Source: Thiomargarita sp.
GTDB taxonomy: Bacteria; Pseudomonadota; Gammaproteobacteria; Beggiatoales; Beggiatoaceae
Direction: 5' to 3'
Length of the DNA: 64,000 bases
NCBI GenBank assembly: GCA_020721045.1
Contig: DYNN01000005.1
Coordinates: 1-64,000 of the forward strand
Below, piece by piece: positions 31,378 through 46,946 of this stretch. Each line of letters begins with the position of its first letter. The stretch's first letter is position 1. The notes below the pieces were generated by a model, which was given only the letters and a program-made list of their open reading frames with translations, searched no databases and was not told the origin of the DNA. The position numbers and the translations under genes are program-made.

Positions 31378-31410
31378 CTATAGGGCGCAATAGCGTTAGC
31401 GTATTGCGCC
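31378..31410. repeat. Palindromic repeat, copy A
   Basis: This 33-bp palindromic unit (CTATAGGGCGCAATAGCG...ATTGCGCC) is repeated in inverted orientation at 31525-31557 with 31 of 33 bases identical. Each copy is itself a hairpin around GCGTTAGC/GCTAACGC. Confidence 0.7.
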
Positions 31411-31524
31411 GCATGGAAACACCGACATTAGCCTAAAAGAATTGGTCATGACAAACTACTATCATCACTAGGTTGAATAGGGCGTTTATTCTATAGGTTG
31501 GGCAATATTGTGTCGTAAACATAC

Positions 31525-31574: not shown

Positions 31575-31759
31575 GTAGGGTGCATAAGGCGTAAGCAGCA
31601 ATGCCATTAAGTTAAGCGTTTCCCCCCTTTTTTAAAGGGGGGCAGGGGGGATTTAAGTAATTGAAATATAAAAAATCCCCCTCAATCCCCCTTTGGTAAA
31701 GGGGGAAGCAAAACTTCCTTAACTTAATGCTATTGGGCGTAAGCAGCCATACGCCCTAC
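31575..31759. repeat. REP-like unit split by a MITE
   Basis: GTAGGGTGCATAAGGCGTAAGCAGC up to 31599 and CATACGCCCTAC ending 31759 are the halves of one palindromic unit related to 20798-20870. They are separated by the element at 31600-31734 and rejoin perfectly if that element and one copy of the 12-bp GGCGTAAGCAGC direct repeat are removed. Confidence 0.75.
31600..31734. mobile_element. MITE with AATGCCATTAAGTTAAG ends, flanked by 12-bp direct repeat
   Basis: The terminal repeat AATGCCATTAAGTTAAG at 31600-31616 is inverted at 31718-31734 with one mismatch. GGCGTAAGCAGC flanks it directly at 31588-31599 and 31736-31747, as expected for a target duplication. The 100-bp interior carries opposing C/G tracts (CCCCCCTTTTTTAAAGGGGGG and a similar one) forming hairpins, no gene. 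The same ends occur on the unrelated-interior element in rnfG. Confidence 0.8.
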
Positions 31760-31764
31760 TCGCC

Positions 31765-31781
31765 AATGCCATTAAGTTAAG
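31765..31781 (+). repeat. Solo terminal repeat of the same MITE family
   Basis: AATGCCATTAAGTTAAG occurs again, exact, 31 bp after the complete element ends, without an inverted partner before the next gene. It is probably the remaining end of a deleted or partial copy. The rest of the gap to 31948 shows only a 25-codon frame from 31790 that I do not support as a gene. Confidence 0.7.
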
Positions 31782-31948
31782 GATTTAGAATGAATATTTA
31801 CGTTGAGTTCGATAATAAAGCCTATGACAAAGATTTTTACTACTTTCGGCAATACTTTAGATTTTAAATTAGACTTGATTGAAATGTAAATATTACACTG
31901 ACATAATTGGCAGACATATATTTGGATATTTATGTCAAACTCACGTTT

Positions 31949-46116: not shown

Positions 46117-46770
46117 CTATTGTGCTTTGGTTTCTGGTTCAGGTGGAAGTGGTGCTTTGACGATATCAGCTTGATGAACTGCAAAGAAATCCAATCCTTG
46201 TTTAACTGCTTTTACGACAGCACGTGGGGTAATTGTTGCGCCGGTGAATTGGTCAAATTGTCCACCATCTTTTTTAACATGCCAACCTGTTTCATTCGGA
46301 TTGTTTAGAGATAAGCCGTTAAATTTTAGAATCCAATCAGCTTTTGCTACTTCAATTTTATCGCCTAAGCCCGGTGTTTCAGCGTGAGATAAAACTCTAA
46401 CGCCTAGAATTTCACCTTGACGATTTACGCCCATGATTAAATTGATTTTACCCGCATAACCTTCACTACTTGTTTCATAGGCTACTGCAACAATTTGTTG
46501 TTCTTTGCGTGCTATATACATAGTGATTGCTTCTTTTTCATTCCCGTCAAGTGAAATGGTAAGAGTATCTTGTAATAGCTCGTTGTCATATAAATTGCTA
46601 GGAACTACTTGTTCTAAAAACACTTTTTTATCTGCTGCCATCGCCATTTCGATTGCTTGGTGAGTTTCGATATTGCTGATTGTTAACGCCATGCTGGCAA
46701 GAAATGCTATTCCACCTAATAAACCACTGTGATATCCCAACCGACTACGGTAGCTGGGGGTCAATGCCAT
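46117..46770 (-). CDS. rnfG: Rnf complex subunit G, start rebuilt by an inserted MITE
   Basis: The 217-residue subunit (from ATG 46770) has one N-terminal membrane helix (GLLGGIAFLASMALTISNI) and a periplasmic FMN-binding domain with DQFTGATITPRAVV, the S/TGAT motif whose last Thr carries covalent FMN. The native start was at 46946 (behind AGGAGGCA, overlapping the rnfD stop as ATGA), but a 152-bp element at 46764-46915 interrupts codons 10-11. The element's end supplies ATG GCA TTG in frame with ACCCCCAGCTAC, restoring MALTPSY. Another in-element ATG at 46812 would add 14 residues. No good ribosome site precedes either. Confidence 0.88.
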   Translation of the reverse strand: MALTPSYRSRLGYHSGLLGGIAFLASMALTISNIETHQAIEMAMAADKKVFLEQVVPSNLYDNELLQDTLTISLDGNEKEAITMYIARKEQQIVAVAYETSSEGYAGKINLIMGVNRQGEILGVRVLSHAETPGLGDKIEVAKADWILKFNGLSLNNPNETGWHVKKDGGQFDQFTGATITPRAVVKAVKQGLDFFAVHQADIVKAPLPPEPETKAQ

Positions 46771-46915
46771 TAAGTTAAGGAAAAATTGTAGGGTGCATAA
46801 GCGAAGCGTCATGCACCAAGAAGCGTGAGAGTTCCAAAAATCGGTGTATGACGCTGCGCTTATACACCCTACGAAAATCAGGTTAAGATAACTTCAGAGC
46901 TTAACTTAATGGCAT
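46764..46915. mobile_element. MITE inserted in the 5' end of rnfG
   Basis: ATGCCATTAAGTTAAG at 46764-46779 and its exact inverse at 46900-46915 bound the element; one more base on each side (46763/46916) also pairs. GTAGCTGGGGGTCA flanks it directly at 46750-46763 and 46917-46930, consistent with a 14-bp target duplication. Removing the element and one repeat restores an uninterrupted rnfG starting MSKGVMTPSYRSR. The ends match the element at 31600-31734, but the interior is a REP-like palindrome. Confidence 0.85.
46788..46872. repeat. REP-like palindrome inside the rnfG element
   Basis: GTAGGGTGCATAAGCG at 46788 onward and its inverse ending CTTATACACCCTAC at 46872 form an 85-bp hairpin. 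It is nearly identical on the left arm to 20798-20827. In rnf mRNA it would fold between the broken native start and the new start of rnfG. Confidence 0.8.
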
Positions 46916-46946
46916 TGTAGCTGGGGGTCATAACGCCTTTGCTCAT
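46878..46946 (-). other. Remnant leader frame of the native rnfG start
   Basis: From the native ATG (46946) the frame reads ten original rnfG codons (MSKGVMTPSY), then twelve element codons, and stops at 46878-46880. The strong AGGAGGCA site at 46951-46958 (plus-strand coordinates) still serves it. It is a 22-codon peptide that ends 107 bases before the rebuilt rnfG start, so rnfG translation may depend on re-initiation. Confidence 0.7.

Follow-up and report, generated by a model that had tools for sequence, protein, structure and literature searches.

Near the middle of a 64,000-nucleotide stretch of Thiomargarita sp. DNA (contig DYNN01000005.1, positions 1 to 64,000; hereafter the window), a short gene-less segment with inverted repeats at its ends separates the two halves of a palindrome. 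What kind of element is it, and which transposase could have moved it? A preliminary description based on the letters alone had proposed a mobile family that inserts with an unusually long target duplication. Our analysis indicates that the segment is almost certainly a MITE with 18-bp ends of the IS4 subgroup, presumably moved in trans by the transposase of a YREK-type DDE parent and inserted with an 11-bp stagger. What the sequences show directly are the ends, the register of the duplication, the copy number, a preference for certain targets and full-length IS4 elements that share these ends.

Boundaries and parts of the element

Searching the window for the 17-mer end (≤3 mismatches) returned five matches against 0.56 expected, a number reached in 0 of 100 shuffles. 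Two of these, at 31600-31616 on the forward and 31718-31734 on the reverse strand, fall exactly where the ends had been placed in the preliminary description; comparison of the right end with the left revealed two mismatches rather than one (AATAGCATT... versus AATGCCATT...). Alignment of 70 copies put the true ends one base farther outward (CAATGCC.../...ATTG), so that the element spans 31599-31735 and its duplication is an 11-mer (Table 1). The direct repeat seen earlier on both sides is therefore present but ends at 11 bp: the twelfth repeated base is a C that, on the left, already belongs to the end as its first base and, on the right, matches by coincidence. Folded as DNA, both the interior (z -4.0) and the entire 137-bp element (z -6.1) were far more stable than shuffled sequences. 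No Rfam family was found in the window.

Table 1. Positions of the MITEs, their target sites and the parent remnant in the window
Feature	Positions	Strand	Basis
Left half of interrupted REP-like palindrome, GTAGGGTGCATAA	31575-31587	.	
Left target-site duplication, GGCGTAAGCAG, 11 bp	31588-31598	.	Register set by 70 aligned copies
Type-A IS4-group MITE, 137 bp, gene-less	31599-31735	+	Aligned copies, consensus comparison
Left terminal inverted repeat, 18 bp, CAATGCCATTAAGTTAAG	31599-31616	+	End matching, copy alignment
Interior, three C/G-rich hairpins	31617-31717	+	DNA fold versus shuffles
Right terminal inverted repeat, CAATAGCATTAAGTTAAG, two mismatches to left end	31718-31735	-	End matching
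Right target-site duplication, GGCGTAAGCAG, exact	31736-31746	.	Register from 70 copies
Right half of interrupted REP-like palindrome, CATACGCCCTAC	31748-31759	.	
3' stub of autonomous IS4-group parent: right terminal inverted repeat (31764-31781) and transposase coding end ...IELNVNIHSKSLT*	31764-31821	-	Similarity, translation
Left target duplication of second copy, TAGCTGGGGGT	46751-46761	.	
Type-B MITE, 156 bp, same ends, REP-like palindrome interior; within 5' end of rnfG	46762-46917	+	
Right target duplication of second copy, TAGCTGGGGGT	46918-46928	.	

A family of MITEs with common ends and unrelated interiors

The second copy, which had been claimed to have the same ends and a different interior, was confirmed as the type-B MITE with its own 11-bp duplication (Table 1). 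When its flanks are joined minus one duplication, rnfG regains a ribosome site followed by MSKGVMTPSYRSRLGYHSGLL...; the open reading frame currently given has its start within the MITE, at 46812.

Across the Thiomargarita sp. genome, a 3.39-Mb draft in 253 contigs, the ends occurred 114 times in forward and 107 times in reverse orientation (221 in total, ≤2 mismatches), while a reversed control pattern gave 1 + 0 matches. This corresponds to roughly a hundred gene-less short transposons. We extracted 73 paired copies from genome stretches and used the 70 with both flanks for duplication counts. An 11-bp duplication was perfect in 30/70 and present with ≤1 mismatch in 44/70, against a mean of 1.15 and a maximum of 5 for randomly re-paired flanks; at the same ≤1 mismatch, the neighboring registers of 10 and 12 bp yielded 0/70 and 5/70. 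With two mismatches allowed at 10-12 bp, 50 of the 70 copies had a duplication and 20 had none. Several of the latter are array edges or have locus-swapped flanks, as expected from recombination between copies. Type A comprises 61 copies with a 136-bp consensus and a median of five differences from it (four in the window copy), the best being 98-99% identical to the window copy; further types have unrelated interiors behind one common set of ends. The preliminary description had staked its family on additional pairs and on duplications elsewhere, and the family passed that test.

Some copies occur in tandem arrays composed of the MITE plus its 11-bp duplication (L029 1488-1938 on G000:C75, L072, L022, L014 and L036), with a period of ~146-148, units repeated two or three times and 99% identity in L029. 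An extra array, G000:C35:13977-14474, consists of ~120-bp units that lack the right end. An undescribed tandem amplification of these IS4-group MITEs by the transposase, in place of slippage or unequal crossing-over following insertion, is in our view an unlikely source of the arrays. At two other loci, L013 125-251 and L082 1035-1105, the flanks look exchanged, with the left flank of one matching the right flank of the other, which suggests rearrangement through recombination between MITE copies.

Full-length IS4 elements bearing these ends in related genomes

IS4-family elements are DDE cut-and-paste transposons with ~10-bp duplications, and the IS4 subgroup is defined by ends of the pattern -AATR--------WTW and repeats of 10-13 bp (De Palmenaer 2008, PMC2266710). 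The left end CAATGCCATTAAGTTAAG fits this pattern (-AATR--------WTW----), and the duplications, 11 bp in the own genome and 10-12 bp in relatives, lie within the range. A target duplication of this length is thus normal for the subgroup, contrary to the earlier view; what remains of the proposed mobile family is its shared ends, different interiors and individual duplications, and an unusual duplication length does not define it. In E. coli MG1655, IS4 has ends (TAATGCCGATCAGTTAAG) identical to those of the MITE at 14/18 positions and a 12-bp flanking repeat. Likeness to E. coli IS4 and its subgroup extends over end sequence, end pattern, duplication length and, in full-length relatives, the YREK signature, whereas the window element lacks a transposase and the parent transposases are only ~23% identical to InsG.

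A search for a full-length insertion sequence with the same ends, as the preliminary description had recommended, was successful. We searched IS4-family transposase genes (NF033592) across the bacterial family and checked their surroundings for the ends, covering 30 loci. Full-length elements with the same ends were recovered at L193, L192, L195, L220, L229 and L243. The complete element L193 measures 1360 bp and has 18-bp ends (CACTGCCATTAAGTTAAG), a single open frame of 430 aa and a 10-11-bp target duplication, cacggtaggc[c/t]. In L192 (1807 bp), the CAATGCC ends are exact, the open frame encodes 445 aa and there is no duplication. A search with aligned transposases showed that T. nelsonii has several full-length but decayed copies (1871-1895 bp) in which the ends are exact and duplications are present, among them L220 (1871 bp, target-site duplication ACCCTACGGCT) and L229/L243 (1895 bp), all with the same ends. 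Intact or decayed, the copies in sister genomes combine these ends with a YREK transposase and 10-12-bp duplications.

The L193 and L192 proteins exceed the curated cut-off of the NF033592 IS4 family, and the parent transposases are DDE enzymes with the YREK signature arranged as Y-2-R-3-E-6-K, homologous to E. coli InsG (E 2e-15). No solved structure matching the parent transposase by sequence was found. As a specificity control, the 30 loci were split by similarity to L193/L192: the ends lay near 9/9 transposase loci of this clade and near 0/21 other IS4-family loci (Fisher p 7e-8).

Beyond ~20 bp of the ends, the MITE interiors have no detectable likeness to the parent. The 18-bp ends would accordingly be the only conserved functional parts of the MITE; a full-length parent's transposase would bind them in trans, excise the MITE and insert it elsewhere through cuts staggered by 11 bp (10-12 bp in relatives), and gap repair would then produce the 11-bp duplications. 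Recognition in trans, cut-and-paste chemistry and present activity of the MITE are steps that we infer. If the MITEs need the ends alone, unrelated interiors behind one end set are explained. In being short and gene-less, with parental ends and duplication, a foldback interior and tens to hundreds of copies, the family resembles IS-derived MITEs generally; it differs in its unrelated interiors behind a single end set and in the several copies in tandem arrays.

Parent remnants in the own genome and present mobility

A third end in the window, 31764-31781, is absent from the preliminary description. It belongs to a 58-bp piece that is 88% identical to L040, 84% to an own-genome relic on contig C179 (L223) and 82% to L193. 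The minus strand reads ...FIIELNVNIHSKSLT*, matching the C terminus ...ITIKLNVNMYSKTLTQWH of the C179 relic, which itself continues into a right end, CTTAACTCAATGGCATTG. Since the 31764 end is the same kind of piece as this relic, the window holds a MITE and a parent stub 28 bp apart. The earlier statement that the transposase is not in the window is correct for an intact gene and has to be amended for this 3' stub.

The own assembly contains only two C-terminal relics of the parent transposase clade (C179 and C80), and no intact parent-clade transposase was found in its 253 contigs, where many MITE copies lie at contig ends; in such a draft, a collapsed multi-copy parent may be missing. The only DDE_Tnp_1 match of a first search, G000:C99:6109-6333, reads like what we take to be an ISAs1-type transposase and was rejected as the parent, being an unrelated fragment with a MITE inserted. 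This MITE-interrupted DDE transposase fragment corresponds to L031 1500-1810 (G000:C99), and the same flank recurs at L076. Among relatives, G007 (5.8 Mb, 490 ends) and G035 (202 ends) are rich in ends and gave no match to a parent-clade transposase, and G015 and G023 have hundreds of ends, likewise with no detectable parent-clade transposase. In these genomes, either the parent was lost or remained unassembled, or another transposase serves the ends.

These remnants bear on whether the family is an immobile fossil here, having spread under an IS4 parent and now changing only through recombination and tandem duplication. This reading is about whether the family still moves today and fits with the IS4-MITE identity; we regard it as a real possibility, somewhat short of even. 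The occurrence of transposase relics only in the own assembly speaks for it, as do the exchanged-flank copies (L013/L082) and the arrays of element plus duplication. On the other side, the type-A copies are young, as judged from their small divergence from the consensus and from the window copy, and the draft assembly is compatible with an intact parent.

Parentage of the hupL MITE

The IS4 assignment also touches a published element. In Ca. Thiomargarita nelsonii Bud S10, hupL is interrupted by a MITE reported to have 10-bp direct and 19-bp inverted repeats with one base in common; it is abundant, with matches on 260/439 contigs, and no parent was found, a PD-(D/E)XK element being suggested (Flood 2016, PMC4853749). 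We located a primer from that study at its published coordinate in the T. nelsonii genome. The coordinates given in that study, 1357-1561, read ACTGTTTGGAT-CAATGCCATTAAGTTAAG...CTTAACTTAATGGCATTG-ACTGTTTGGAT; the 18-bp ends of the hupL MITE are thus identical and its duplication is 11 bp long, making it a member of the present family. High abundance is a further likeness; its length (205 bp including duplications) and interior are different. Judged from sequence, its parent would thus be an IS4-subgroup element that is present as decayed copies in the T. nelsonii genome.

By the published suggestion, the MITEs would instead derive from a PD-(D/E)XK (YhgA-type) endonuclease element and merely resemble IS4 in their ends, as might be read from a hupL-MITE homologue inside one putative YhgA gene of T. 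nelsonii (PMC4853749). Insertion explains that single case. The ends of the hupL MITE are exactly those of the present family, its duplication, ACTGTTTGGAT, is 11 bp long, and the T. nelsonii genome contains full-length IS4 transposase genes bounded by such ends, with duplications; the ends accompany all nine loci of the IS4 clade and none of the 21 other IS4-family loci. We therefore consider an endonuclease origin very improbable. The window MITE is a further IS4-group example, useful mainly for resolving the parentage of the hupL MITE.

Target choice and the REP-like palindrome

Rejoining the window flanks restores the palindrome that had been claimed for the empty site, GTAGGGTGCAT...ATACGCCCTAC (31575-31585 and 31749-31759), as a weak one: 9/11 positions pair and the perfect core is 6 bp. 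Strong palindromes were enriched among reconstructed empty sites (6/41 versus 4/200 random window stretches) but are a minority, and the window MITE's own target falls below the threshold. Insertion into REP units as a defining habit of the family was rejected on these grounds. The duplicated 11-mers instead have a symmetric preference, with A at position 1 and T at position 11 (0.59), C at position 4 and G at position 8 (0.75), T/G at position 5 and A/C at position 7. The favored target approximates a short palindromic motif, ANSCKWMGSNT, that is also present in the arms of the genome's REP-like palindromes. Because the motif also occurs there, the window MITE splits such a palindrome, and its insertion into a REP-like unit at 31588-31747 is incidental.

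Four copies (L002, L033, L044 and L083) are flanked by REP-like inverted arms, CGTAGGTC...GACCTACG, in place of a direct duplication, possibly because the palindrome lost its loop after the insertion. Judged by eye, L040 ~330-400 also has a REP-like palindrome with a RAYT-like gene start (MPDYRR...) behind it, and 31378-31470 of the window has a palindrome matching that of L040 with an apparent decayed start (MTNYYHH*) near 31444.

REP units are palindromes that adjoin a tetranucleotide of the GTAG type and depend on an HUH transposase for movement; to our knowledge, HUH elements create no target duplication. That the repeats are REP/BIME palindromes dispersed by a transposase of the RAYT (HUH) kind, with direct repeats arising by chance or as part of the REP, is a reading to which we give practically no credence: the genome does contain a RAYT-like gene start (L040) as well as REP-like palindromes, and the type-B interior is itself a REP-like palindrome, but the register-exact 11-bp duplication in 44/70 copies already refutes it, many targets are non-palindromic and IS4 transposases carry the MITE ends.

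Distribution and significance

Across 42 genomes from this bacterial family, most type-A matches outside the own genome came from a single complete genome, G002 (77-85% identity). Among the matches listed, Thiomargarita, Parabeggiatoa, Thioploca and other Thiotrichaceae had ends paired at MITE spacing, and a few such pairs came from bins or genomes labeled Thiosymbion, Methylobacter, Sulfurimonas, Desulfobacteraceae and Flavobacterium; some of these MAG assignments may be contamination. Most outside copies among the matches listed have 10-12-bp duplications; the type-A interior is absent from all of them. In the 7.6-Mb genome of T. nelsonii Hydrate Ridge, we counted 873 ends.

MITEs with these ends are among the commonest repeats of large sulfur bacteria, where they break both genes and assemblies. 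With a named parent, there is a transposase that can be tested, the published suggestion for the hupL MITE can be corrected and annotators are able to recognize the insertions.
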